Below, one piece after another: positions 8,886 through 33,709 of a DNA stretch of 33,709 nucleotides (its first letter is position 1; every line of letters begins with the position of its first letter). The stretch is taken from positions 1-33,709 of the forward strand of contig JAJPIL010000019.1 of assembly GCA_021324755.1 (NCBI GenBank), read 5' to 3'. This stretch comes from Pseudomonadota bacterium. Lineage in GTDB: Bacteria; Desulfobacterota; Binatia; Binatales; Binataceae. The notes under the pieces are model-generated. The model saw only the letters and a list, made by a program, of their open reading frames with translations. It had not been told where the DNA came from and ran no database searches. Position numbers and translations under genes: made by a program.

Positions 8886-9965
8886 ATGGCTGAGGCAACA
8901 GAGATAGCGACGCGGATGACGCGTTATCTTGGGGTCCCCGTTGAGCGATGCGCTGTGCTGGCCAACGGATGGGAGACGACGGTTTTTGAGATTGTCCTTG
9001 GTCGCGAAGTGACCAGGTTTGATATTCCAAAGGGTGTCAACCTTGCGCTGCGTTTTTACCAAGCCAAAGACGGGCAGAACAAGGGGGCACGGGAGTTCGA
9101 GATATTGCGCGCGCTGGTCGGGACCCGGTGCGCGGTTCCTAGGCCATATTGTTTCGAACCCGACCCCGAACCGCTTGGCGCGCCTTTTCTCCTCATGAAA
9201 CGGGTGCCTGGGGGACCGTTGCTACACACGCGTAGTTTTCCCAAGGCCTTCGTCACTTTTTCTTTGGCTTTTTTTGCGTTCGTGCGAGGCCATGTAGAAC
9301 TTCACCGGGTCGACATCAAAGGCTGCGGACTTGACCGTCTCGCTCCAGCGTTCGCGCCGCCTGGGGACAGTTGGGACGCTCCGTTGTTGCTTCGGATGCT
9401 GCGCACCGTAAAGATGCGCGTAGAGTCGGGCCCCCTGCCCCACCTGGTAAGCGCCCTTAACTGGGCGCTCGAGCGGGCGCCACGCTTTGTCAGCTCGAGA
9501 CGAAGCCTTTTGCACCTGGATTACCATCCGCTCAACACAATCGTGAGCGGAACTCGGCTTACCGGGATTATCGACTGGGTATTTGCCGATATCGGCGACC
9601 CCCATCTCGACGCGGCTATGACTGCTATGATTATGGCCTCGTACGCTTTCGAGCGTCCGCGGTGGCTAGCAGCAAACATCTGCGGCAATACGCTGCGCCG
9701 CTTCTTCAGCACGCTCTACATCGCTCTTTACCATTCGATGGCGCGACTCGACTTCGAGCGTTTTCGCTACTGTCAAGCCGTAGCCGCGCTTCATCGTCTC
9801 TCGATGTTCGCCATTATGCGCCGGCGCGGTGCCGAACAAGAGGGTTTTCGTCCCGAGGCTGCGGCTGACGTGACGCCGTCAGCGATGCGTCTTTTGTCGC
9901 GCTACGCGTCGCGCAAGACAGGCGTGGCGATCCCACTAGACAGTCCGACCTTTTCGCCGGCCTAA
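8886..9965 (+). CDS. Phosphotransferase with aminoglycoside phosphotransferase/choline kinase fold
   Basis: 359-residue kinase-like protein of the APH superfamily, which transfers phosphate from a nucleoside triphosphate to a small-molecule hydroxyl. The N-lobe spans about 20-110 (LALRFYQ strand, GAREFEILRAL helix, PFLLMKRVPGG hinge). The C-lobe has the catalytic loop HLDYHPLN (His210, Asp212, Asn217) and the metal-binding Asp230 in GIIDWVFADIGD. All essential residues are present, so it should be active. The ATG is preceded by GGGG at good spacing. It stands alone, with its own promoter at 8778-8806, so context gives no substrate. An antibiotic-resistance role should not be assumed, since this superfamily also covers homoserine, choline, methylthioribose and acyl-CoA-linked kinases. 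Confidence 0.85.
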   Translation: MAEATEIATRMTRYLGVPVERCAVLANGWETTVFEIVLGREVTRFDIPKGVNLALRFYQAKDGQNKGAREFEILRALVGTRCAVPRPYCFEPDPEPLGAPFLLMKRVPGGPLLHTRSFPKAFVTFSLAFFAFVRGHVELHRVDIKGCGLDRLAPAFAPPGDSWDAPLLLRMLRTVKMRVESGPLPHLVSALNWALERAPRFVSSRRSLLHLDYHPLNTIVSGTRLTGIIDWVFADIGDPHLDAAMTAMIMASYAFERPRWLAANICGNTLRRFFSTLYIALYHSMARLDFERFRYCQAVAALHRLSMFAIMRRRGAEQEGFRPEAAADVTPSAMRLLSRYASRKTGVAIPLDSPTFSPA

Positions 9966-10148
9966 CGGTGGGACCCGTCACGTCGTGGGGCGTCCGAGAA
10001 AAGAATTTTGAGCCCTTGTCCTAGTGGGCCGCGTCAAAACTTATCACTCTTTGGGGATAAAGCGTTCTTTTTCGACTCCCGCGACTCGGGTTGTGACCCC
10101 CGCACATCGGCTTGGCATGTGTGGCAGGCGCCAACTTAGCCAGGCTTC

Positions 10149-12899
10149 TTAAGAACCCTCTGCGAGCAATCGACGCAGCACGTACGGCAAGAGGCCGCCA
10201 TGAAGCATGTATTCCTCCTCTTCGGGCGTATCGACGCGCAACTTCACCGTGAACTCCCGCTCGCGACCATCTTCCTGTACGCGAACTTTGAGATGTTGTC
10301 CTCTGCGGATTCCGGAGGACAGCCCCTCGATCGAATAAAGTTCGTTACCCTTAAGCCCCAAGGTCTCGCGGTTTTCCCCCGGCATAAATTGAAGCGGCAA
10401 CACGCCCATCCCAACCAGGTTACTGCGATGAATTCGCTCGTAGCTCTCGGCGATAACGGCCTTAATTCCCAAAAGCTGGGTGCCTTTTGCCGCCCAGTCG
10501 CGCGACGAGCCCGAGCCGTACTCTTTGCCGGCGATTACCAGCAGCGGAACGCGCTCCGCACGATAACGCTCGGCGGCCTCGAAAATCGTGGTCTTCTCCC
10601 CATCGGGGAAATGGAGGGTAAAGCCGCCTTCCACGCCCGGAACCAATAGGTTGCGCAGGCGCACGTTCGCGAACGTGCCTCTAAGCATTACTTCGTGATT
10701 ACCTCGGCGAGCCCCGTACGAATTAAAATCTTTGGGGCTCACGCCCCGCTCGATCAAATATCGGCCTGCAGGGCTATCCGGTGGTATTGAGCCGGCCGGC
10801 GAGATGTGGTCGGTGGTGACGCTATCGCCGAGCATCACCAGCACTCGGGCGTTGCGAATGTCCGCCGGAGGGTTTGGCTTAAGCGGCACATCGTCGAGAA
10901 ACGGTGGCCGGCGCACGTAAGTCGACTCTTCCTGCCAGGGAAACAACTCGCTAGGGCTGACGGTAAGCGCTTGCCATCGCTCGTCACCCTCGAACACTTT
11001 ACTGTATTCTTCGCGGAACATCTGTTCGTCCACCGTAGTGGCAAGTGCTTCTCTGAGCTGTTCGGGGCTGGGCCAGATGTCCTTGAGCCACACAGGTCTT
11101 CCGTCAGCTCCGATCCCCAGGGGTTCCCGCATCAGGTCGACATCCATCGATCCTGCCAGGGCGTAGGCCACAACCAGCGGCGGCGAGGCAAGGTAAGCAA
11201 AGCGCGTGTCCGGGTTGATTCGGCCCTCGAAGTTGCGATTTCCGCTAAGGACGGCGCACGCGACGAGGTTACCCTGCCGGATAACCTTAATTAGCGCTTC
11301 GTTTAGCGGCCCGCTGTTTCCGATGCAGGTCGTACAGCCGTATCCCACCAGATGGAAGCGCAATTTCTCGAGATATGGGAGCAAGCCAGCGCGCTCGAAA
11401 TAACGCGTCACCACTTTTGACCCGGGCGCAAGACTTGTCTTGACCCAAGGCTTTGTGGAGAGCCCTCGTTCCACGGCGTTTTTAGCCAACAATCCCGCGG
11501 CCAGCATCGCCGCCGGATTCGACGTATTCGTGCAGCTAGTGATAGCAGCGATCACCACCGACCCATGGGTGATTTCGACCGAGCTGCCGTTCAAATTAGC
11601 TGTAAGGCGACGCCCCAGCTCTCCAGGAGCAGCTACGTTGCCGTCAACGTCGGCCGCATCGATCCACTTTGTCGCCTGCTGGTTGTCAAGGCTGACGCCC
11701 CTGGCCTGCATCTCTTTTACCAGCTCGCGACGAAACTCGCGCTTAGCTTTCTTAAGCGTAACGCGGTCTTGTGGACGGCGCGGCCCGGCAAGGCTCGGCT
11801 CGACCGTGGCTAGGTCGAGCTCCAACACCTCGGAGAACTGCGGCTCGACGCTATCGGGGGTGCGAAACAGTCCTTGCTCCTTGGCGTAAGCCTCCACCAG
11901 TGCGATCTGTTCTGCGGGACGACCGGTTTGACGCAGGTAGTCGAGCGTCAATCTGTCGATCGGGAAAAAGCCTATAGTGGCTCCGTACTCGGGCGCCATA
12001 TTGCCCAAGGTGGCCCGGTCAGCCACGCTCAAGCTGTCAAGCCCGGGACCGAAAAACTCCACAAACTTGCCAACCACGCCCTTGGCCCGCAACATCTGCG
12101 TGATCGTGAGCACCAGGTCCGTGGCGAGCGTTCCTGGAGGCAGCTCTCCATGCAGTCGCACGCCGACTACTTCGGGCACCAACATCGGAAGCGAACATCC
12201 AAGCATCGCCGCCTCGGCCTCGATCCCTCCTACTCCCCAGCCAACGACTCCCAAGCCGTTGACCATCGTCGTGTGTGAATCGGTGCCCAAAACCGTGTCG
12301 GGGTATGCTTCGTTTTTCGGAGACACGAACACCACGGAAGCGAGATATTCGAGGTTCACCTGATGCACGATTCCCGTTCCGGGCGGAACGACGCGGAAAT
12401 TGTCGAACGCCTGTTGGCCCCAACGTAAAAACAGATAGCGCTCGCGATTGCGGTCGAATTCCAGCTCGACGTTGCGCTGCAACGCTAAAGGCGTGCCGAA
12501 CACGTCCACTTGCACCGAATGGTCGATTACCAAATCCACGGGCTTGAGCGGGTTGACGCGTGACGGATCGCCGCCGAAACGCTTGACGGCGTCGCGCAAA
12601 GCGGCGAGGTCGGCGACCACAGGCACGCCGGTAAAGTCCTGTAAAATAACCCGCGCGGGCATAAAAGAGAACTCGGCCTGCCCAGCCCCGTGCGGCCATC
12701 GCGCCAACGTTTCGACCATTTCTGCTGTCACCACTTTGCCGTCCTCGCGCCGAAGCGCATTCTCGAGCAACACCTTGATCGAGTACGGCATCCGTTGAAG
12801 CGAAAAACCCCGCCTCTCCAGAGCTTCAAGCCTCCAGACGATATAGTTCAAATACCCAACCTTGAGCGTGGTTTTGCTGCCAAAGCTATCGTTGCTCAT
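10149..12899 (-). CDS. acnA: Aconitate hydratase AcnA
   Basis: TCA-cycle enzyme that interconverts citrate and isocitrate through cis-aconitate in the cytoplasm. At 916 residues it matches the AcnA/IRP1 type in length and opening (YLNYIVWRLEALERRG, then YSIKVLLENALR). The [4Fe-4S] ligands are Cys456 (AAITSCTNTSNP), Cys522 and Cys525 (YGCTTCIGNSG). Substrate-site motifs include VLGTDSHTTMVNGLGV, LGDSVTTDHISPAG near the C-terminal swivel domain, and GKEYGSGSSRDWAAKG. The ATG at 12899 has AGAGGA just upstream. It stands between a convergent kinase gene and the lhr gene upstream on the same strand, 176 bases away, so it probably has its own promoter. Nothing unusual in the active site. Confidence 0.97.
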   Translation of the reverse strand: MSNDSFGSKTTLKVGYLNYIVWRLEALERRGFSLQRMPYSIKVLLENALRREDGKVVTAEMVETLARWPHGAGQAEFSFMPARVILQDFTGVPVVADLAALRDAVKRFGGDPSRVNPLKPVDLVIDHSVQVDVFGTPLALQRNVELEFDRNRERYLFLRWGQQAFDNFRVVPPGTGIVHQVNLEYLASVVFVSPKNEAYPDTVLGTDSHTTMVNGLGVVGWGVGGIEAEAAMLGCSLPMLVPEVVGVRLHGELPPGTLATDLVLTITQMLRAKGVVGKFVEFFGPGLDSLSVADRATLGNMAPEYGATIGFFPIDRLTLDYLRQTGRPAEQIALVEAYAKEQGLFRTPDSVEPQFSEVLELDLATVEPSLAGPRRPQDRVTLKKAKREFRRELVKEMQARGVSLDNQQATKWIDAADVDGNVAAPGELGRRLTANLNGSSVEITHGSVVIAAITSCTNTSNPAAMLAAGLLAKNAVERGLSTKPWVKTSLAPGSKVVTRYFERAGLLPYLEKLRFHLVGYGCTTCIGNSGPLNEALIKVIRQGNLVACAVLSGNRNFEGRINPDTRFAYLASPPLVVAYALAGSMDVDLMREPLGIGADGRPVWLKDIWPSPEQLREALATTVDEQMFREEYSKVFEGDERWQALTVSPSELFPWQEESTYVRRPPFLDDVPLKPNPPADIRNARVLVMLGDSVTTDHISPAGSIPPDSPAGRYLIERGVSPKDFNSYGARRGNHEVMLRGTFANVRLRNLLVPGVEGGFTLHFPDGEKTTIFEAAERYRAERVPLLVIAGKEYGSGSSRDWAAKGTQLLGIKAVIAESYERIHRSNLVGMGVLPLQFMPGENRETLGLKGNELYSIEGLSSGIRRGQHLKVRVQEDGREREFTVKLRVDTPEEEEYMLHGGLLPYVLRRLLAEGS

Positions 12900-13075
12900 C
12901 GCTTATCCTCTTGATTGTCCTTGCCGGAAGACGACTCTTTTCGTTGCTTTGCTAACCGATACTACCTGCGAACTTGTCCAATTTAAGCGTTCCGTGTGCT
13001 GACGACATGTTGCCCCACGGAAGCCACCACCACGTTGCCTTAACTAGGTATGCATCGCACGTTCCTGCCGCCGGT

Positions 13076-16000
13076 TTAAATCGGCCGACCAAAGGCGATA
13101 CCTCGAGGCGGCGGTCCCGGAAGTCCATTGTACACCAACGCCGTGCCGTCTGAGTAAAAGCTCATCGCGGCAAGTGTCGCAAGGCGCGAGGAACTGAGCG
13201 CTGGCTCACCGTCGATCGTTACAATTCTGACCTTGCGCCGCAACGCTACGATCGCCGTTACGGCCTGCTCAAAAAGGCCCTCATCGGTGGGCGAAAGCGT
13301 CTTGAGCGCCGAGCCGGCTAAAGCAAGCACGGGTCTTCCACCAGCGAAGGCGACAATATTTGCGGGCTCGCGCGCCACACCCAGGCTCGGAAGACTTATT
13401 CCGTACGGGTTAGCCGGATCCGCAGCGCTCAGCGCCAGAACCTTGGCCGATTGGGAACCGCGATGGCGACATGCCCGCAAAACCTCTAACGCTTCGGGCA
13501 GCGCGTACTGCTCACCTGAAAGCCCCTGGACAAAATATCCGGCGCGGATCACGCCCGCAAATTCGAGTCGGCGCAATTCGGCGCCGAGCTCGGCCCATTT
13601 TATATCTATGTTTTCGAGGGCGAGCATCTCGCGCGCCAAGATCCCGTGGCGAAAAAGTAGCGAGAGAGCTAGTTCACGGCCATCTCGCGCAAGCGTATTC
13701 TGAGTTGTGTTCGCCCGAGCAAGCGCGCTCCATCTCCCGGTCATGCACAAGCGCAAACGAGCCTGGAGCGCGGCAAGTTTCTTTCGCATTCCCCGTCGAT
13801 TTTTGCGCCCACCACCGGCCTTAATTACAACGGCCGGCATCCTGAGAGGCGCGAAACTATCATTTGCGACCAGGCCAGCGGCCGCCAGGCGCAAAAGCGA
13901 GGCGATTACTTCCTGCTCGCTCCATCCAACGCGCGCGCATAATTGGTCGAGAAACTGTGCACCGCCTTCGATCAATGCCCGGTACACGGGGAGATCGCTC
14001 TCCGCTGGCTCGCGAGCGACAAACCTTGCAACCCACGGCGACGTCGGCGTACGCGGCAGAATCGCAACCTTGGTCGGCTTGTCGGCAGCCGCCGAGCCGT
14101 CAGCAACGCCAAACCATCCAAACCGCCCACCGGCGCAAAGCAAATCCAGGTACTCGCTGCGGTAATCTACAATACGAGCGCGAAGGATCGCCTCCTCCCA
14201 GAATTCGGGCACGAAGGCCAAGCCGGCCAGCTGCTCCAGAACCGTGGCTACACCTTCAATTCCCGGCTCCAGTCCCTGCCCGCCCACGTGATGCCATCGA
14301 AGAAGGAAGTCAACGAAATCAGCTTCCCCGCAAGGCTCGAACGTTTTGCGCAAGCGCTCGAGGCTCAAACGATGAATTCGCTCGAGGTTCGTTCGCTCGC
14401 ACCATTGCTCAGCGCTCGCAGACGTGTATCGCCCGCGAAAAACGTGGCCTGCAGCCTCAAGGGCGAGCAAGGCGTTGCGCGCTTCGGACAATTCTATGCC
14501 TAAACGGTCGGCGACCTCTCGCTCTTCGAGCGGCCGTGAGGTTCGAAGAACCCTACGAACCAGCTCTGCGACCGCGTCATCCCGCCCAACCGACCGGGCG
14601 GTCGCCTGCTCGGCAGACGGTTCGGGCGCTTGGCGCATCTCCACATCGTCGGAGGGCGAACCTTCCGCCGGGCCGTTTCCGCCCTCGAGCCTCGCATTTG
14701 GATAAACAACCCGGATCAAGGGCAAATCCTCGACTGCCACGATCTTTTCGCCTAATCCGCCGCCGAGGTCGATCGCTGTAATTCGCCGCTCCCGTTCCAA
14801 GGCTTCGATATGAACTTGGGCCAGCTCGCCTGCCCGCTCGGCAAGAGCTTCGCGCGAGAGCATCCCGTGGCGCCTCAAAAGCTCGTAAAGTTCATCGGCG
14901 TCGCGGGCTTTATATCGCTTGTCACGTCCGCTGGCTTCGAGCTCGACACGCTCTACAACTTCGCGGTCCAAAAGCCCGGCCAGGTTTCCGCGCTGAAGCG
15001 TCTGCTCGATCAGCGCGCGATTGGTCGCAACTGTCCGCGAGCGGCGGTTGGCGCGCTCGCCGTCATCCAAGAAAGCGTAATCCCACGCGAGCAACAGGCG
15101 ATGGGCTATCAATGAGGGCGTAAGCGTATCGACGAACTTAACTTTGACTTCTCCGGCCTCAAGTGCTTTTAAGAAAGCCTCGAGCTTTGGGATATCGGCC
15201 GCCTCCTCCATGCACTCGCGAAGCGTTTCGGTAACTAGAAAGTGATCCGGCAACGGTACGTTCAGGGGGCGGTTTTCGAAACACGCCTGTTGCTGGGGGA
15301 AGAGCGCGACCAACAGATCCTGGGCGCGAAGCCGCTGAACCCACACTGGGACGGGCTTTCCGCCGCTGTTGCGTCTTAAGCTCAAGGCGCGGGCAGCCAC
15401 GTGCCTGAAGCGTGTCTCGAACATTGGAGCATCGAGAACCGCCTGACAGAACGTGTCGCGAACGCTATCCGCGGGCAGCATCGCTATAAGCTCGTCCGGC
15501 GGAAAACTGTGACGCTGGTTGAGCGAAAGCAACACCCCATCGTCCGTGGCCGAAGCCTGAATTTCAAAGTTGAAGCTACGGCAAAGTCGCTTGCGAAGCG
15601 CAAGCCCCAGGCCGCGATTAAAACGCATGCCGAAAGGCGAATGGATTACGAGCTGGGTTGAGCCGAGACCATCGAAGAAGCGCTCGATAACGAGCGTGCG
15701 AAAGTCCGGGAGTTCCCCCAAGACAGCCCGGTTTGCGCGCACGTAGTTGAGTGCCTGGCGAGCCGCGCTTTCCTCCATCGCGCATTCCTGGCACAACCAT
15801 CGAATCGCGCCGGACTCGTCGCTTGACCGGGCAAGTATCTCTTTGCGCAGCTCACACAGCTCGGCGGACAGCGCAAGGCTTCGACCCAGGGCCTCGCTAT
15901 GCCAGAACGGCAACGTCGGCGCCATTCCTGGAGCCGCTTCGACCAGCAACCGACCGCGCGAAAGCCTCTGAATCTGCCACGCCATCGAGCCCAGCGCAAA

Positions 16001-27340: not shown

Positions 27341-28804
27341 TTAAAGTTCGAACTCCGCCGTCTCGAGAATACGCGCCACGCGATAAAGAAATCGGTTGCC
27401 GAGCACCCCGTCGATTACGCGATGGTCGTACGAGCAGGTCAGGTACATCACGGAGCGTATAGCGATCGTGTCCTCGCCATCTACCTCGACAACCACCGGC
27501 TCTTTACGAATCTCCCCCATGCGTAGGATCGCGACTTGGGGCTGATTAATAATCGCAAAACCGAAAAGGTTACCTTCGCGGCCCGGATTAGACACGGTGA
27601 AGCTTCCTCCCGCGAGGTCGTCGGGCGTAAGCCGGCCTTCGAGCGTCTTGCGGCGCATCTCTTCGATCTCGCGCGCCAGCCCCAAAAGCGACTTCTGGTC
27701 CGCCGACTTGATTACCGGGACGACCAAGCCCTCATCGCTGTCGACCGCGATACCTAGATTTATCTGTTTGCGAATTACGAGCGAGTCGCCCACCACAGAA
27801 GCGTTCATGCGCGGGAATTCCTTAAGCGCACGGACCGCGGCCATCGCAACCATCGGCAAAAAGGTAAGCTGGAAGCCCTCGCGCGCGCGAAAAGCTTCTT
27901 TGTGGGCCTCACGAAAGCGCACAAGTTTAGTCATGTCCACCCGCGCGACGATTCCCACGTGTGGAGCGTGGGTTTTCGAGTAGACCATGTGTTCGGCGAT
28001 AATTTTGCGCCGTCGCGAAAACGGTTCAACGATGTCGCCCTCTTGGGGTTGGTACGTGGGCGGACGAAAAACGGTGTAAATAGGCTGACGTGCCGGTGCG
28101 GGCTCGACTGATGACGTCTGGGGCGCCTCGATTCCTTTGGCTGCCTCGTCCGTCTCAGGATGCGGCGTCTTTGGCGAGGTTGCTGGCTGACTCTGCTCGC
28201 GCTGCAACGATTCCAGGTAATTCAACACGTCGCGCTTGGTTACGCGGCCACCGATCCCGGAACCGGGAATCTTGCTGAGGTCAAGGCCGTACTCGGCAGC
28301 CATTCTCATCACCACCGGCGACCATCGCCGCGGCTGCTCCTGGTGTTCCACGGCGCTCTGCTCCGGTTGTGGCTGTTCGTGAAACGGCACTCTGCGAGCC
28401 TCGCCTTCGGTCGTTGGCTTGCTAGAGGGCTGAACCGGCTCTGTCGGACCGGCGGTCGGTCCGCTCACTCCTACGTTTAAATTGGCCGGTGGTTCAGACC
28501 CGGTGACTACGCTTTCGAACGTATCTTTAGTCTTAGGTTGTGGCGGTGTGGGCTGCGGGGCAGAACTTTTCGGCTCCAAAATGGCGAGCCGAGCGCCTAC
28601 CGGCAAGGTCTCGCCTTCGCGCACCAGAATTTTTGCCACTACGCCGTCGGTCGGCGCCGGGATCTCGGTGTCGACCTTGTCGGTCGAGAACTCCAGAAGC
28701 GGCTGACCCTCGCGCACGACGTCGCCTTCTTTGACGAGCCATTTGGCTACCGTTCCTTCGATTACGCTCTCCCCCATCTGGGGCATGACAATCTCGATCG
28801 CCAT
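27341..28804 (-). CDS. Dihydrolipoamide acyltransferase (E2) of a 2-oxoacid dehydrogenase complex
   Basis: Core acyltransferase that moves the acyl group from lipoamide to CoA. 487 residues. An N-terminal lipoyl domain (about 2-77) has the lipoylated Lys43 in FSTDKVDTEI. A long Pro/Gln/Glu-rich flexible linker follows, then a peripheral-subunit-binding domain (about 161-197, ending GRVTKRDVLNYLE). A second linker leads to the catalytic domain with the active-site motif YDHRVIDG (His461, Asp465). Only one lipoyl domain is present. It starts 14 bases after the E1beta stop and completes a three-gene operon; no E3 (dihydrolipoamide dehydrogenase) gene is in the window. The lipoyl region looks to me more like the branched-chain or 2-oxoglutarate type than classical pyruvate E2, but the substrate is unresolved. 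Confidence 0.94.
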   Translation of the reverse strand: MAIEIVMPQMGESVIEGTVAKWLVKEGDVVREGQPLLEFSTDKVDTEIPAPTDGVVAKILVREGETLPVGARLAILEPKSSAPQPTPPQPKTKDTFESVVTGSEPPANLNVGVSGPTAGPTEPVQPSSKPTTEGEARRVPFHEQPQPEQSAVEHQEQPRRWSPVVMRMAAEYGLDLSKIPGSGIGGRVTKRDVLNYLESLQREQSQPATSPKTPHPETDEAAKGIEAPQTSSVEPAPARQPIYTVFRPPTYQPQEGDIVEPFSRRRKIIAEHMVYSKTHAPHVGIVARVDMTKLVRFREAHKEAFRAREGFQLTFLPMVAMAAVRALKEFPRMNASVVGDSLVIRKQINLGIAVDSDEGLVVPVIKSADQKSLLGLAREIEEMRRKTLEGRLTPDDLAGGSFTVSNPGREGNLFGFAIINQPQVAILRMGEIRKEPVVVEVDGEDTIAIRSVMYLTCSYDHRVIDGVLGNRFLYRVARILETAEFEL

Positions 28805-28818
28805 AATTACGCCTATTT

Positions 28819-29799
28819 TCAGTAGGCAGCGAGCCGACGAATCGCCGCCACAATTTTGTCGGTGTTCGGCAGCACGAATTCCTCGAGCGGCGGGCTGAAC
28901 GGGTTATGCGTATCGGCCATCCCGACTCGTACGATAGGCCCGTCGAGATAGTCAAAAGCATGCTCCGCGATGATCGCCGCGACCTCGCCGCCGATGCCGC
29001 CCGTGAGGCGATCCTCGTGCGCTATCACTACCTTGCCAGTCTTCTTGGCGGTGGCCAGAATCGCCTCGCGGTCGAGCGGCAACAGCGTCCTTAGATCGAG
29101 CACTTCGACCGAAAGCCCATCTTCTTTCTCCACGATCCGGGCCGCATCTAAAGCGTAATGCAGGCATCCGCCGTAAGTTATAACCGAGAGATCGCGCCCC
29201 TCTCGTTTTGTCTCGGCAATGCCGATCGGCACCAAAAAATCGCCTTCTGGGATATCCTCCTTGATACTGCGATACAAACGTTTGTGCTCGAAATAGATGA
29301 CCGGGTCATCGTCACGAATCGCGCTTTTGAGCAGCCCTTTGGCGTCATAAGCCGTGGCCGGAGCCACCACCTTGAGACCCGGAACGCGCGTAAACCACGC
29401 CTCAGGGTTCTGTGAATGGAACAACGCGCCGTGAACGCCCGCGCCCGCGGGTGCTCGGATCACAAGTGGACAAGAGACTTGTCCGCCGTGGCGATACCGG
29501 AAAGTCGCGGCCATATTGACGATCTGGTCAAAGGCGCACGATATGAAGTCGGCAAACTGCATCTCGACCACCGGCCGAAGCCCCATCACTGCTGCCCCGA
29601 CTCCAGCGCCCACGATTAGAGATTCCGCGATAGGTGTGTCGATAACGCGGTCGGGCCCGAACTCTTCGAGCAAGCCTTCGGTGACCTTGAACGCGCCGCC
29701 TAACTCAGCCACGTCCTCACCCATGACGAAGACGTTCTCGTCGCGGCGCATCTCCTCGAACAGAGCCATATTGATTGCTTTAACGTAGGTCACTTCCAC
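28819..29799 (-). CDS. 2-oxoacid dehydrogenase E1 component, beta subunit
   Basis: Beta subunit of the thiamine-diphosphate-dependent E1, which decarboxylates a 2-oxoacid. 326 residues, normal for the heterotetrameric type. It has the diagnostic MGEDVAELGGAFKVTEGL near the N-terminus, then DTPIAESLIVGAGVGAAVMG, QMATFRYRHGG-like segment with the Gln/Phe cofactor contacts, and GGIGGEVAAIIAE before the C-terminal LGMADTHNPFS-like stretch. The start is a GTG with a GAG-containing leader. It begins 19 bases after the E1alpha stop and ends 14 bases before E2, so all three are translated from one message. Confidence 0.94.
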   Translation of the reverse strand: MEVTYVKAINMALFEEMRRDENVFVMGEDVAELGGAFKVTEGLLEEFGPDRVIDTPIAESLIVGAGVGAAVMGLRPVVEMQFADFISCAFDQIVNMAATFRYRHGGQVSCPLVIRAPAGAGVHGALFHSQNPEAWFTRVPGLKVVAPATAYDAKGLLKSAIRDDDPVIYFEHKRLYRSIKEDIPEGDFLVPIGIAETKREGRDLSVITYGGCLHYALDAARIVEKEDGLSVEVLDLRTLLPLDREAILATAKKTGKVVIAHEDRLTGGIGGEVAAIIAEHAFDYLDGPIVRVGMADTHNPFSPPLEEFVLPNTDKIVAAIRRLAAY

Positions 29800-29818
29800 G
29801 GCTAACTCTGCCTTTCAG

Positions 29819-30865
29819 CTAGGAAGATTTTTTAGCAGCCGCCTCCACGCCGCGCCCTACCGGGGTGGCGTAAAGGTCTTCCAACGCCTCCTCGGGACGC
29901 GGATAGGGGCTCTGCTCGGCGAACTCGACAGCACGCTGGATGATGGCCTGGACCTTCTGGTCGATTTGTTCACGCACGGCCGCGAGATCATGTCCCTTTC
30001 TCTGCAGGTAAAGCTCGTAAGTCTGTATCGGGTCGCGGCTTTCCCAGGCCACAAGCTCTTCCTTGCTGCGATAAAGTGCAGGGTCATGTTCGCTATGTCC
30101 GTGATAGCGGTAGGTTTTAAATTCGATAAGTTCCGGACCATTCCCCTCGCGAATTCTTTTAACCACTTTTTCTGTTAGTTGGAGCACCGCCAAAAGGTCG
30201 TTACCGGGGCAGACGTGTCCTTTGAAGCCATAGGCGGCAGCGCGGTCGGCCACGTTCTCGATCGCCATCTGCTTTTCGATCGGAGTCGAGTAGGCATAGC
30301 GGTTGTTTTCGCACACAAAAAGCACCGGCAACTTGCGCACGCCGGCAAAATTCATGGCCTCGTGAACGTCACCTCGCGAGGACGTGCCTTCGCCGAAAAA
30401 TGCCACAGCAATACGCTTTTCACGCCGCAGCTGAAATTTAAGCGCCACACCCACGGCTACCGGCAACGACGAGCCCAGCATCGAAGTCGAACCGATGATC
30501 CCGTGCTCGAGGTCTCCCGCATGAAGGAACGAATCCTTGCCGCGCGAAAACCCCGTCTCCTTTCCCATCAATTGCGCCATCAAGCGCCCGGGGTCACAGC
30601 CGCGCAAAAGGAAGACGCCCAGGTCGCGATGGAGCGGCAGCACGACGTCGTCCGGTTGGAGCGGCGTACATACGCCGGTCACGATCGCCTCTTGGCCGGC
30701 GCCGGAGTATACTCCGCCCAGTATTTTGTTTTGCCGATGAAGGCGCGAGACCCGCTCCTCGAAGGCGCGAATTAGCTTCATCGAGAAGTAAAGCTGCAAC
30801 TCGAACTCGACCTGAGCCCCAACCTCCGGGCCAGCCGCCGCTTGAGAGCCACCGACTATATCCAT
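29819..30865 (-). CDS. 2-oxoacid dehydrogenase E1 component, alpha subunit
   Basis: Alpha subunit of E1, carrying the thiamine-diphosphate pyrophosphate and magnesium site. 348 residues. The TPP motif runs from GEG (158-160) to Asn187-Asn188, a variant of the usual GDG...NN. SGAGQEAIVTG near 54-64 and YRYHGHSEHDPALYRS after 250 are typical of the family, the latter corresponding to the loop that interacts with E2 and lipoyl domains. The ATG at 30865 has GGAG eight bases upstream. It is the first gene of the E1alpha-E1beta-E2 operon and is divergent from the MaoC/acyl-CoA dehydrogenase operon. Pyruvate, acetoin or branched-chain 2-oxoacids are all possible substrates. Confidence 0.94.
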   Translation of the reverse strand: MDIVGGSQAAAGPEVGAQVEFELQLYFSMKLIRAFEERVSRLHRQNKILGGVYSGAGQEAIVTGVCTPLQPDDVVLPLHRDLGVFLLRGCDPGRLMAQLMGKETGFSRGKDSFLHAGDLEHGIIGSTSMLGSSLPVAVGVALKFQLRREKRIAVAFFGEGTSSRGDVHEAMNFAGVRKLPVLFVCENNRYAYSTPIEKQMAIENVADRAAAYGFKGHVCPGNDLLAVLQLTEKVVKRIREGNGPELIEFKTYRYHGHSEHDPALYRSKEELVAWESRDPIQTYELYLQRKGHDLAAVREQIDQKVQAIIQRAVEFAEQSPYPRPEEALEDLYATPVGRGVEAAAKKSS

Positions 30866-30989
30866 TTCCTTTGCTCCGCTAACGAGAAAATTGTATCCGC
30901 TGGGACCGACGCCCGCTATACTCTTGAGTTTTTTGCCGAATTCAAAAACCCTTGTTTTGAGTTACAAGTCGATGCGGCTTGCTGTTGCT

Positions 30990-31024
30990 CGTTTGCCTGT
31001 TTCGTTCACGTTTGCCAGTTTCGT
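30990..31024. promoter_or_regulatory. Two 16-base direct repeats in the divergent gap
   Basis: CGTTTGCCTGTTTCGT (30990-31005) and CGTTTGCCAGTTTCGT (31009-31024) differ at one base and repeat with a 19-base period. The half GTTTCGT also occurs inverted as ACGAAAC at 31051-31057. They lie between the E1alpha start and the MaoC start, so they are probably binding sites for a regulator of one or both operons. Confidence 0.55.
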
Positions 31025-31104
31025 ACGACAGAATCGCTAAGTGAAAAGAGACGAAACCGAGAAAGTAAACGCTCGAGCAAGCTGCGAGGCAAGCGCCCTC
31101 GCGC

Positions 31105-31117
31105 TATACTGACGTCA
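31105..31117 (+). promoter_or_regulatory. Possible -10 box with adjacent TGACGTCA palindrome
   Basis: TATACT (31105-31110) is a good -10 box pointing toward the MaoC gene, but no good -35 lies at the right distance, so an activator might be needed. The perfect 8-base palindrome TGACGTCA (31110-31117) overlaps its last base. The start codon follows about 30 bases later. Confidence 0.35.
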
Positions 31118-31148
31118 CAGCGCATATTGATATTTGCGTAGGTTTTGC

Positions 31149-31652
31149 GTGCAGTCGAATCCAATGATTCATGAATTTCAAAAGAAGGCCAAAAAGCTCC
31201 CCAAAGGCCACTATTACGAGGATTTCACCGTTGGTTACGTCTTCCAACACCATTGGGGCAGAACGATCAACGAAGGCGACAACAGTCTTTTCAGCACCGC
31301 CACACTAAGCTTCAACCCGTTGTATTTCAATGCCGAGTACGCCCGTGCCCACGGCCATCCGCAAGTAGTCGTCAATCCGATGTTAGTCTTTCTCGTAGTG
31401 TTCGGTCTTACGGTGGAAGACCTGAGCGAGGCTGGGGGACTGTTTCTCGGGGTGGACAAGCTTACCTTCCATCGGCCCGTCTATCCCTGTGACACGCTTT
31501 ACGCGCGCAGCACGGTTATCGACAAACGGGAGTCATCCAAATATCCGACCAGCGGGATCGTAACTTGGCATACTGAGGGCTTCAACCAGCGCGACGAGCT
31601 GGTAATCGATTTTCGGCGGACAAATCTCATTCCAAAGCGAAAAAAGCCCTAG
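31149..31652 (+). CDS. MaoC-family hotdog protein, like the N-terminal half of mesaconyl-CoA hydratase
   Basis: Single-hotdog protein of the MaoC/R-hydratase superfamily, about 167 residues. It opens GHYYEDFTVGYVFQHHWGRT and continues NEGDNSLFSTATLSFNPLYFN, the place where active hydratases have Asp and His. Here the His position appears to be Tyr (NPLYFN rather than NPxHxD). From memory, it matches the N-terminal domain of the double-hotdog mesaconyl-CoA hydratase, including LVFLVVFGLTVED and RPVYPCDTLYARSTV. I infer it is the non-catalytic partner of the hotdog protein at 32824-33306. The start is uncertain: GTG 31149 has AGG upstream; TTG 31134 and ATG 31164 are alternatives. The acyl-CoA dehydrogenase starts 14 bases after its stop. 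Confidence 0.85.
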   Translation: MQSNPMIHEFQKKAKKLPKGHYYEDFTVGYVFQHHWGRTINEGDNSLFSTATLSFNPLYFNAEYARAHGHPQVVVNPMLVFLVVFGLTVEDLSEAGGLFLGVDKLTFHRPVYPCDTLYARSTVIDKRESSKYPTSGIVTWHTEGFNQRDELVIDFRRTNLIPKRKKP

Positions 31653-31666
31653 GAGAGCGTCTTGTC

Positions 31667-32821
31667 ATGAGCTACATGACCGAGGAGCGAAAGTTAATTC
31701 AGCAGACGGCGCGCGAATTTGCGATGAAAGAAGTGCTGCCGCTGGCCAATCGGCTCGACCCAGAACAGGGCGATATCCCGATGGAGCTGCGGGAGAAAAT
31801 GGCGCGCATGGGCTACTTCGGCATATTGATCCCGCAAGAGTACGGCGGGCTTGGCCTCGGGGCCTTCGAATATGTGCTGGTGACCGAAGAGCTTGCACGC
31901 GCCTGGATGAGCGTGGCCAGCATAATCGCCCGAGGCAACGGGATCTGGGGCGACCTCAGCGAGGAACAAAAGCGCAAGTATTATCCGCCGATGGCGCGCG
32001 GCGAATTATTGGGGGCTTTCTCGCTATCGGAACCCGAAGCGGGTTCTGACTTAGCGTCGATCTCATGCCGGGCGGTACGCGACGGCGACGAATGGGTGAT
32101 CAACGGAAGCAAAACTTGGGTCACTTTCGCCGACGGCGCCGATTTTATCCAGCTTTTTGCACGCACCCAGCCCGCGCCTGACGAGCGGCGGCGCTACCTC
32201 GGCATTAGCCAATTCCTCATCTTCAAACCCAGGGGTTCACTTCCGCCAGGCGTAAAGGGCTCGCCGATCCGCAAAATCGGCTACTTCGGATGGAAAACCT
32301 GGGAGCTTCATTTCGAAAACTGCCGTGTTCCGGCCTCCGCTCTGGTCGGCGAAGAGGGTCGCGGCTTTTACGCGATGATGAGCGGACTTGAGCTTGCGCG
32401 GGTCCATACCGCAGCCCGCGCGATAGGCCTTGCCCGCGGCGCGTTGGAAGATGCGATCGAGTACGCCAAGCAGCGCGTTCAGTTCAAGCGCCCGATCGCC
32501 GAGTTTCAGTGGATTCGATTCAAACTGGCGGAGATGGCAACCGAAATCGAGGCCGCGCGCCAATTGACCTACTTCGTTGCCAACGAAATGGACAGTAAGC
32601 GCCGGTGCGACAAGGAGGCTTCGATGGCCAAGTGGTTTGCCTCGGAGATGGCCGAGCGCGTAACCAGCGCCGCGCTGCAAATTCACGGCGGCTATGGCTA
32701 TACGAAAGAATTTGCGGTAGAGCGGTATTGGCGTGACGCACGTCTGACCAGAATTTTCGAAGGCACCTCTGAAATTCAGTTGCGCATAATCTCGAACAGG
32801 CTTCTGGGGAGCATCGAGTAG
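31667..32821 (+). CDS. Acyl-CoA dehydrogenase, resembling methylsuccinyl-CoA dehydrogenase
   Basis: FAD-dependent enzyme that puts a 2,3-double bond into an acyl-CoA and passes electrons to ETF. 384 residues, the classical length, with IPQEYGGLGLG, FSLSEPEAGSDLAS (FAD/substrate contacts), VNGSKTWVTFA-like middle, and ALQIHGGYGYTKEF. The predicted catalytic base is Glu365 in IFEGTSEIQ. The stretches LREKMARMGYFGILIPQEYG, VHTAARAIGLA, ARQLTYFVANEMDSKRRCD recall methylsuccinyl-CoA dehydrogenase, but the long N-terminal extension of that enzyme is missing. AGGAG overlaps the stop of the preceding MaoC gene. It sits between two MaoC genes, which argues that its enoyl-CoA product is hydrated by their products. 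Other short or branched acyl-CoA substrates remain possible. Confidence 0.92.
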   Translation: MSYMTEERKLIQQTAREFAMKEVLPLANRLDPEQGDIPMELREKMARMGYFGILIPQEYGGLGLGAFEYVLVTEELARAWMSVASIIARGNGIWGDLSEEQKRKYYPPMARGELLGAFSLSEPEAGSDLASISCRAVRDGDEWVINGSKTWVTFADGADFIQLFARTQPAPDERRRYLGISQFLIFKPRGSLPPGVKGSPIRKIGYFGWKTWELHFENCRVPASALVGEEGRGFYAMMSGLELARVHTAARAIGLARGALEDAIEYAKQRVQFKRPIAEFQWIRFKLAEMATEIEAARQLTYFVANEMDSKRRCDKEASMAKWFASEMAERVTSAALQIHGGYGYTKEFAVERYWRDARLTRIFEGTSEIQLRIISNRLLGSIE

Positions 32822-32823
32822 CC

Positions 32824-33306
32824 GTGGACGTCAAAACGCTAACTGGTACGCACAACTATTTCGAAGACTTCAACGTCGGGGACGTCTTTGAGCACGCGCG
32901 TGGCAAGACCGTCACGGAGTTTGACAACGTCATCCTTACGAATCTCGTGCTGAACACGGCGCAAATTCATTTTAACGAACATTTAACGGCTACGCTGCCG
33001 TACAAGAGCCGTCTCGTTTTCGGCGGAGTTACTGCCGCCCTCGTGATCGGACTTGCGATGCAAGATACGGGCGAAAATGCACTAGCAGAACTAGGCCTCG
33101 ACGAGGTGCGCTTCAGAGCGCCGGTTTTCCACGGTGACACGCTGTACGCTTTCAGCGAAGTGCTAGACAAAAACGAAGCGCCAGCGAACGTGCCCTCGAA
33201 CTTCGAGGCCGGCGAGGTTCGCTTCCGCCACTGGGGCATCAATCAAAACAACGAGATCGTCTTCGAGGCAGTTCGCCGCGTACTGATCAAGAAGCGACCT
33301 CGGTAA
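32824..33306 (+). CDS. MaoC-family hotdog hydratase, like the C-terminal (catalytic) half of mesaconyl-CoA hydratase
   Basis: Single-hotdog protein of 160 residues. It opens NYFEDFNVGDVFEHARGKT and continues TEFDNVILTNLVLNTAQIHFNEHL, where Asp and His (TAQIHFNEH) are in the positions expected for the hydratase catalytic pair. LVFGGVTAALVIGLAM and FRAPVFHGDTLYAFSEVLDK complete the fold. From memory, it matches the C-terminal domain of mesaconyl-CoA hydratase. It lies 2 bases after the acyl-CoA dehydrogenase stop and uses a GTG start, so it is translationally coupled. I infer it forms a heterodimer with the MaoC protein at 31149-31652. The substrate could instead be another branched enoyl-CoA. 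Confidence 0.88.
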   Translation: MDVKTLTGTHNYFEDFNVGDVFEHARGKTVTEFDNVILTNLVLNTAQIHFNEHLTATLPYKSRLVFGGVTAALVIGLAMQDTGENALAELGLDEVRFRAPVFHGDTLYAFSEVLDKNEAPANVPSNFEAGEVRFRHWGINQNNEIVFEAVRRVLIKKRPR

Positions 33307-33575: not shown

Positions 33576-33709
33576 ATGGCCTTGGCTGAAATCATAAAAG
33601 GGGCTCTGGACGGCAAGCGGCTTGAGGAGCGCGAGGTAGTAGCGCTTTTGGAGTGTCCGCAGGGCGAGCTCGAGGGGCTGTTGTGTGCGGCGGGGGAGCT
33701 TCGGGACCG
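33576..33709 (+). CDS. Start of an unidentified gene, cut by the right edge
   Basis: An open frame from an ATG at 33576 runs 44 codons to the window edge. It begins MALAEIIKGALDGKRLEERE and continues ALLECPQGELEGLLCAAGEL. A helix-rich start with this 'Glu-x-LL...L..AA..LR' pattern is common ahead of the radical-SAM domain in biotin synthase- and HydE-like proteins, but the diagnostic CxxxCxxC would lie outside the window. Codon use (GAG, CTC, GCG) fits a real gene. A possible promoter lies just upstream. Identity is a guess only. Confidence 0.55.
   Translation, partial: MALAEIIKGALDGKRLEEREVVALLECPQGELEGLLCAAGELRD

Follow-up and report, generated by a model that had tools for sequence, protein, structure and literature searches.

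The window analysed here is an entire contig of 33,709 bp (C28; GenBank JAJPIL010000019.1) from the draft genome of a bacterium of the family Binataceae. At its right end, three open reading frames of the same orientation follow one another at intervals of 14 and 2 bases. They encode an FAD-dependent acyl-CoA dehydrogenase and, on either side of it, two single-hotdog proteins referred to as MaoC-1 and MaoC-2 (Table 1). A first-pass annotation of the sequence had described this tight cassette, and all three frames are present as reported; the start of MaoC-1, placed there at 31149, is better assigned to the ATG at 31164, because several relatives align from that Met. As the same three genes recur together in many genomes, the trio is not a chance arrangement. 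The operon is proposed, with a probability of roughly 0.7, to encode a dehydrogenase and a heterodimeric hydratase that act one after the other on a C5 dicarboxylyl-CoA, and the cassette is regarded as a split, extension-free version of known enzymes, namely methylsuccinyl-CoA dehydrogenase (MCD) and mesaconyl-CoA hydratase (Mch). Two types of the operon are distinguished below: that of the window (type I) and a sister type (type II) with the order MaoC-1, dehydrogenase, MaoC-2, CitE.

Table 1. The cassette, its surroundings and the codons of selected residues, in window positions
Feature	Position	Strand	Description
MaoC-1	31164..31652	+	162 aa from ATG 31164; single-hotdog protein matching the N-terminal half of Mch
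MaoC-1 Tyr54	31323-31325	+	at the place of the catalytic His
MaoC-1 Ser88	31425-31427	+	at the place of 8HGN Ser79
MaoC-1 Arg152	31617-31619	+	at the place of 8HGN Arg142
Acyl-CoA dehydrogenase (FAD)	31667..32821	+	384 aa; MCD clade, without N-terminal extension
Dehydrogenase Arg89	31931-31933	+	
Dehydrogenase Arg251	32417-32419	+	
Dehydrogenase Glu365	32759-32761	+	catalytic
MaoC-2	32824..33306	+	160 aa, GTG start; single-hotdog protein matching the C-terminal half of Mch
MaoC-2 Asn44	32953-32955	+	at the place of 8HGN Asn226
MaoC-2 His49	32968-32970	+	at the place of 8HGN His231
Intergenic stretch	30866..31163	.	between the operon and a divergent pyruvate-dehydrogenase-type E1 alpha gene; promoter predicted here
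Open frame from ATG	33576..33709	+	cut at the contig end; read by eye

The MaoC pair and mesaconyl-CoA hydratase

The family PF19315 models the two-domain Mch over 353 positions. The alignment with MaoC-1 covers model positions 14-168 (125.7 bits), that with MaoC-2 positions 217-353 (75.5 bits). The relatives of both proteins in the Protein Data Bank (PDB) are 4E3E from Chloroflexus and 8HGN from Methylorubrum. Both were compared with ten two-domain proteins encoded in other genomes and on plasmids; of eight regions fetched for such proteins, one (L189) yielded none. MaoC-1 is closest to the N half in all ten and MaoC-2 to the C half in eight, the other two being Cupriavidus proteins that match slightly better with their N half. 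A quick tree of 71 hotdog rows was calculated from 19 of 61 MaoC-1, 19 of 60 MaoC-2, 12 N halves, 12 C halves and nine single MaoC proteins; two of the C halves, taken from PDB entries, are incomplete, and the two Natrarchaeobaculum halves sit on long branches. In this tree, MaoC-1 forms one group with the 12 N halves (SH-aLRT 97) and MaoC-2 one with the 12 C halves (SH-aLRT 99), and the two other MaoC proteins of the window's genome fall outside both groups. These results support the earlier suggestion that the hotdog proteins each correspond to one half, N or C, of the double-hotdog Mch. Unlike the fused polypeptide, the halves are encoded by two genes with the dehydrogenase gene in between.

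According to the available text of the 8HGN paper, catalysis is carried out by Asn226 and His231, both located in the C half, and malate additionally contacts Phe71, Ser79, Asn85 (a backbone contact), Arg142, Tyr248 and Gly249. The corresponding residues were surveyed in homologues, some of which are near copies of one another, so that the counts are not independent; L104 was omitted from the MaoC-2 rows and L014 from the MaoC-1 rows, as the wrong gene had been picked in each. MaoC-2 contains the catalytic pair as Asn44 and His49, both kept in 59 of 59 homologues, as is Gly67 at the place of Gly249. The substrate-binding Ser79 and Arg142 are matched in MaoC-1 by Ser88 and Arg152 (60 of 60), and Tyr54 replaces the catalytic His. 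Tyrosine occupies this place in 60 of 61 proteins, a count that includes L014 with its gene re-read, and L017 has His. The catalytic and the substrate-binding residues of the two-domain enzymes (4E3E, 8HGN and haloarchaeal) are thus found in the corresponding halves. On this basis, MaoC-2 is predicted to be the catalytic subunit and MaoC-1 a non-catalytic, substrate-binding subunit, and the pair fits a heteromer with a single catalytic subunit. A similar division is described for the steroid hydratase ChsH1-ChsH2, in which, according to the available part of PMC11321319, the catalytic His has become Tyr in the non-catalytic partner ChsH2. This system, compared here by description, resembles the MaoC-2/MaoC-1 pair but acts on a steroid substrate. 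Most bacterial homologues of the Haloarcula Mch have one domain and align with its N-terminal domain, as stated in the accessible text of PMC5592240. Among the titles and abstract openings listed for these enzymes in open-licence PMC literature, none is about a split Mch.

The dehydrogenase and its relationship to MCD

Among PDB entries, the MCD structure 6ES9 (PdMCD) ranks fourth for the dehydrogenase with 301.8 bits, behind FadE3 and two entries named merely acyl-CoA dehydrogenase (303-313 bits). The glutaryl-CoA dehydrogenase 3mpi reaches 230.6 bits and ACAD8 (1rx0) 204 bits. Pfam and NCBIfam assign the protein merely to general families or to models below their cut-offs. Its placement was examined in two trees that contain no isobutyryl-CoA dehydrogenase. 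The quick one has 50 rows and samples 24 of 60 operon enzymes; the careful one has 36 rows with 17 of the 60 and omits six long-branch dehydrogenases of the window's genome and one Cupriavidus copy. The operon enzymes and both solved MCDs (6ES9 and 8CIW) form one clade, with a support of 99 in the quick tree and 100/98 in the careful tree, where it comprises 21 rows.

Eight of the residues mapped to PdMCD are kept: S85, R89, W151, T153, T248, R251, F364 and E365 correspond to Ser248, Arg252, Trp318, Thr320, Thr418, Arg421, Phe534 and Glu535. Elsewhere in the panel, the full set occurs in 8CIW, two Cupriavidus enzymes and one Natrarchaeobaculum enzyme; it is found in none of the 14 other dehydrogenases of the window's genome and in none of 5lnx, 5ol2, 4iv6 and 3pfd. 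Of the 60 locus dehydrogenases, 59 retain both Arg89 and Arg251; the remaining one, L141, is an unrelated enzyme with 27% identity. The N-terminal extension of MCD, about 170 residues long, is not present in the protein, which begins at the core. The earlier view of an MCD-like enzyme lacking the extension therefore holds. Three other identities were rejected. The window's genome encodes a separate glutaryl-CoA dehydrogenase (494 bits to 2eba) and a separate medium-chain acyl-CoA dehydrogenase (452 bits to 1ukw), both outside the clade. An isovaleryl-type enzyme was rejected as well; the glutamate of the window's dehydrogenase stands at the canonical place as in MCD.

A Natrarchaeobaculum plasmid (L181:3126-8450) carries electron transfer flavoprotein (ETF) beta and alpha genes, a two-domain mch, a methylmalyl-CoA lyase gene and an MCD-clade dehydrogenase gene. 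This cluster is considered a fused haloarchaeal counterpart of the split cassette.

The cassette in relatives

Forty regions were collected from MaoC-1 matches in 38 relatives, 34 of them in the window's family and six in other families of its class. Of these, 33 (L094-L126) are of type I and seven (L127-L133) of type II. A related CoA-transferase (49-69% identity) follows in 16 of the 33 type I regions, and a related lyase does so in 17. Neither is encoded within at least 2 kb past MaoC-2 in nine type I loci (L094, L100-L103, L106, L123-L125), some of which contain distant CoA-transferases (28-32%). Less than 2 kb is visible beyond MaoC-2 in L095 and in the window, where 403 bp remain, and L097, L116 and L126 end at a contig edge. 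The truncated frame at the end of the window bears, by eye, no likeness to the CoA-transferase or lyase that often follows MaoC-2 in relatives. In L104, MaoC-2 is located away from the other genes.

Other genomes contain the cassette as well. Thirteen of 32 homologue loci show close similarity (59-73% identity); all of these come from genomes assembled from metagenomes and belonging to Chloroflexota, Alphaproteobacteria and others. Gene order varies among them, and both MaoC genes are present in all 13 (one MaoC-1 with an in-frame stop), the dehydrogenase, CoA-transferase and lyase in 12 each. Plasmids of Tistrella, Variovorax, Pseudosulfitobacter and Paracoccus share the order MmgE/PrpD, MaoC-1, dehydrogenase, MaoC-2, CoA-transferase, lyase, and in three of them a TRAP transporter comes before this set. 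On the 17.8 kb plasmid p9 of Paracoccus sp. SCSIO 75233 (L142), the complete cassette is the main cargo, consisting of a LysR regulator, TRAP transporter, MmgE/PrpD, both MaoC proteins, dehydrogenase, CoA-transferase and lyase. IS genes follow the cassette on the Pseudosulfitobacter plasmid. The cassette is also found in the archaeon Halomarina; in Sphingomonas panacis the dehydrogenase gene lies apart from the rest, and in Rhodococcus opacus both MaoC genes and a lyase occur, and the stretch read contains no dehydrogenase gene of this clade. In Cupriavidus oxalaticus, genes for MmgE/PrpD, CoA-transferase, lyase and a two-domain, fused MaoC accompany that of a dehydrogenase with 66% identity. 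The fused protein in the same setting supports the view that it and the pair do the same job. In the fused-hydratase cluster of Cupriavidus metallidurans CH34 (L134, ~9183-14066), the MmgE/PrpD gene is split into two parts separated by about 3.4 kb, which looks like the result of an insertion. No such cassette was found within the ~15 kb read around the MmgE matches of C. necator N-1, C. campinensis and Paraburkholderia.

The gene content of these relatives recalls the itaconate/methylsuccinate cluster of Pseudomonas and Cupriavidus necator, described in the accessible text of PMC12290011 (also PMC9875883) as a characterised C4 cluster of ich, mcd, mmgE, ict and ccl. Relatives of the window likewise combine CoA-transferase, dehydrogenase, hydratase, lyase and MmgE/PrpD. 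The window itself differs in holding only the three genes of the cassette, with a split, Mch-type hydratase; the five genes of the cluster do not occur together in it, and it is on the Tistrella, Variovorax and Paracoccus plasmids that the remaining kinds of gene adjoin the dehydrogenase and hydratase genes. The window's dehydrogenase is 34% identical to that of a Shinella cluster, used as a stand-in for the characterised P. aeruginosa and C. necator proteins, and falls in another clade. The Shinella cluster is presumed to be P. aeruginosa-like on the basis of its gene order and of Ich. NCBIfam names no family for its 270-aa protein, and its lyase and transferase score below cut-offs. A methylsuccinate role of the cassette in other genomes is probable.

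A relation to the ethylmalonyl-CoA pathway is apparent from the type II operons. The ccr model TIGR01751 scores above its cut-off in 13 of 41 family genomes. In 12 of these, ccr is on the same contig as a type II MaoC-1, at a distance of at most 1.1 kb in 11 genomes and of 2.1 kb in G040; in G034 the contig breaks there. No family genome without type II has a ccr above cut-off. With 13 genomes containing both, none ccr alone, four type II alone and 24 neither, the association gives a Fisher p of 1.4e-7 (the sets being typed by the authors' own reading, and relatedness not being corrected for). In four type II genomes no ccr exceeds the cut-off: in G024 the gene is broken into two pieces, and the other three, of genus g4, carry a ccr-like gene instead (35-37% identity in the two compared). 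A third mutase class occurs in 29 of 31 genomes with a ccr or ccr-like gene and in three of ten without (p 1.6e-4; counts by own reading, partial copies included). The one member scanned with NCBIfam exceeded only the cut-off of the general mutase domain model. The class possibly represents ethylmalonyl-CoA mutase. The relation of the split cassette to the ethylmalonyl-CoA pathway is thus well supported in relatives, and the copies beside ccr suggest an unfused form of the middle steps of this pathway. Two further arrangements were noted. In G008 (L200:1728-4771), a 643-aa mutase-like protein is encoded immediately next to a ccr-like reductase (298.7 bits; cut-off 378.55), possibly a divergent Ccr/Ecm pair. 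In genera g5, g7, g8 and g14 (L191-L196, L201), the type II lyase adjoins a ccr-like gene (33-35% to ccr), and the trio is missing there.

Proposed function, alternatives and origin

In the proposed mechanism, the dehydrogenase would oxidise a methylsuccinyl-CoA to mesaconyl-CoA. MaoC-1 and MaoC-2 would form one heterodimeric (R)-enoyl-CoA hydratase, with MaoC-2 supplying the water-activating Asn and His and MaoC-1 the Ser and Arg that hold the free carboxylate. The product, methylmalyl-CoA (or citramalyl-CoA), would be split by a CitE-type lyase, for which an unlinked gene on contig C14 is the candidate here. In relatives, neighbouring genes provide a CoA-transferase, a lyase and MmgE/PrpD around the trio.

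Two esters of the substrate are retained. The C1 ester, which is that of the ethylmalonyl-CoA pathway and would lead to propionyl-CoA and glyoxylate, is judged slightly more likely than the C4 ester, which would lead to acetyl-CoA and pyruvate. The preference rests on the MCD clade, the Mch-type hydratase and the CoA-transferase, which is nearest to the C1-forming succinyl-CoA:mesaconate CoA-transferase model (471 and 488 bits, below the cut-off of 700). In the accessible literature on Haloarcula, this transferase forms the C1 ester (PMC5592240), and the two-domain Mch prefers mesaconyl-C1-CoA (Vmax of 20.7 U/mg versus 1.12 U/mg). The glutamate of the window's dehydrogenase stands at the MCD-like canonical place, and that of the Shinella enzyme, taken as P. 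aeruginosa-like, at the isovaleryl-type place. A route through methylsuccinyl-C4-CoA, mesaconyl-C4-CoA and (S)-citramalyl-CoA to acetyl-CoA and pyruvate, as in the Pseudomonas/Cupriavidus cluster, is nevertheless a serious, if less probable, explanation. It is consistent with the gene content shared by many relatives and with Phe118, which closes the C2-methyl pocket of the dehydrogenase, and the malyl-CoA lyase model gives the lyases lower scores than citE and RipC/Ccl do, with none of the scores reaching a cut-off.

A different acyl group on the same architecture, with succinyl-CoA converted via fumaryl-CoA to malyl-CoA or with a longer alkylsuccinyl-CoA, appears improbable. In its favour, two carboxylate-binding arginines are retained and the methyl pocket is gone, and the Haloarcula Mch is reported in the available text also to take (S)-malyl-CoA and fumaryl-CoA. 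Succinyl-CoA oxidation would, however, drain the citric acid cycle, against which MCD appears to be built according to the part of the literature available, and the MmgE/PrpD neighbours in relatives suit methylsuccinate. An ordinary operon for branched-chain acyl-CoA degradation (isobutyryl- or 2-methylbutyryl-CoA) with two unrelated MaoC proteins is less credible still. It would accommodate the general or below-cut-off family assignments of the dehydrogenase, but conflicts with the MCD clade, the arginine pair, the half-specific grouping of the MaoC proteins, the conserved CoA-transferase and lyase neighbours and the far lower score of the isobutyryl-CoA dehydrogenase structure (204 versus 301.8 bits).

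Several observations weigh against the preferred assignment to a C5 dicarboxylyl-CoA by MCD- and Mch-type enzymes. Of the carboxylate-binding arginines 252, 376 and 421 of PdMCD, only two are matched (by Arg89 and Arg251), Arg376 being replaced by Phe207; Glu380 corresponds to Thr211. The methyl pocket formed by Ala285 and Phe287 is changed to Phe118 and Leu120. Among type I dehydrogenases, Ala occupies the 118 place in 17 of 52 and Phe the 120 place in none. The Ala/Phe pair is present in all seven type II (ccr-side) dehydrogenases, and the solved MCD 8ciw carries Ile/Ile at these places. Phe118 and Phe207 argue for the C4 ester or another substrate. In MaoC-1, Phe80 at the place of 8HGN Phe71 is kept in only 35 of 60 homologues and Phe or His stands at the place of Asn85; at the Tyr248 place of MaoC-2, Phe is found in 42 and Tyr in 17 of 59. 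The window's genome, a 3.07 Mb draft of 29 contigs (95.5% complete), lacks ccr, the best match scoring 62.9 bits against a cut-off of 378.55. No CoA-transferase or lyase gene is linked to the operon there, and there are only two mutases, neither of the ccr-linked third class.

The suggested link to the ethylmalonyl-CoA pathway is consequently borne out by the sister operon beside ccr in relatives and is not supported for the window's own genome, although the biochemical idea behind it is supported. The first-pass annotation had named clustering with other families and a lack of pathway genes as contrary outcomes; the proteins group with MCD and the Mch halves instead, and only the part on pathway genes was observed, as a lack of ccr and of the third-class mutase in the window's genome.

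Other parts of a pathway were sought in the same genome. None of 18 CoA-transferase matches exceeds 43% identity to the operon type. The candidate lyase is the unlinked CitE at C14:98910-99944, which shares 70-74% identity with those type II lyases that were compared and scores below the cut-off of every named lyase model. It lies between a putative argC and a YdiJ/GlcD-like FAD oxidase, in synteny with the type II locus minus ccr and the trio, and has an orthologue at 70% identity or more in 35 of 41 family genomes. The genome also encodes a candidate isocitrate lyase (213 bits), and a cluster resembling propionyl-CoA carboxylase was recognised by eye next to a methylmalonyl-CoA mutase gene. 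The second mutase (G000:C19:186081-190563, L162) has a separate B12-binding subunit, lies between two acyl-CoA dehydrogenases and carries Gln at the substrate position where methylmalonyl-CoA mutase has Arg. This residue suggests an isobutyryl-CoA-mutase-like enzyme, and the protein was not counted as an ethylmalonyl-CoA mutase. At G000:C29:300075-301731 (L059), the gene of a CitE-type lyase converges with that of a single-domain MaoC in which the catalytic His is retained. This pair was also not taken as the operon's partner, as its MaoC is of a different kind, outside the half groups. This MaoC is nearest to the RipB/Ich model, below cut-off, and the pair is possibly another dicarboxylyl-CoA module.

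With regard to origin, the first-pass annotation had considered an ancestral module, for which the two enzymes give different answers. In the careful tree, the type II dehydrogenases, not the window type, are sister to the MCDs (99/95). Forcing all extension-free members into one clade without MCD is rejected (AU p = 0.0256, for a group named after a first tree had been seen). The available text of the 2017 MCD paper argued for a partial duplication as the origin of the extension. An ancestral, extension-free dehydrogenase is favoured by these trees. In the hotdog tree, type II MaoC-2 joins the C halves (85) and type II MaoC-1 joins the other MaoC-1 proteins (88) instead of the N halves. With these differing signals, the halves favour neither fusion first nor splitting first. 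As a tentative scenario, the extension-free dehydrogenase and the heterodimeric hydratase may both be ancestral, with the MCD extension arising by partial duplication and the Mch fusion later. The ccr-linked sister operon would still represent the unfused pathway, and the window's lineage would have lost ccr and kept a paralogous cassette for methylsuccinyl-CoA from another source. Its odds are lowered by the N-half tree, in which fused proteins do not fall inside the split ones.

If correct, the assignment would demonstrate that simpler, unfused forms exist, in Chloroflexota, Proteobacteria and a haloarchaeon, of two enzymes that are hallmarks of acetate assimilation and are borrowed by synthetic CO2-fixation cycles. 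It would provide natural extension-free MCD relatives and hydratases divided into binding and catalytic subunits. A further prediction is a gene cluster for methylsuccinate use whose enzymes differ from those of the characterised cluster; screening for the known hydratase gene would probably make it look incomplete.

On its other side, the operon of the window adjoins divergent genes for a 2-oxoacid dehydrogenase (E1 alpha, E1 beta and E2; 27341-30865). Such genes are directly adjacent to the cassette in L095 as well and lie about 7.7 kb away in L094.

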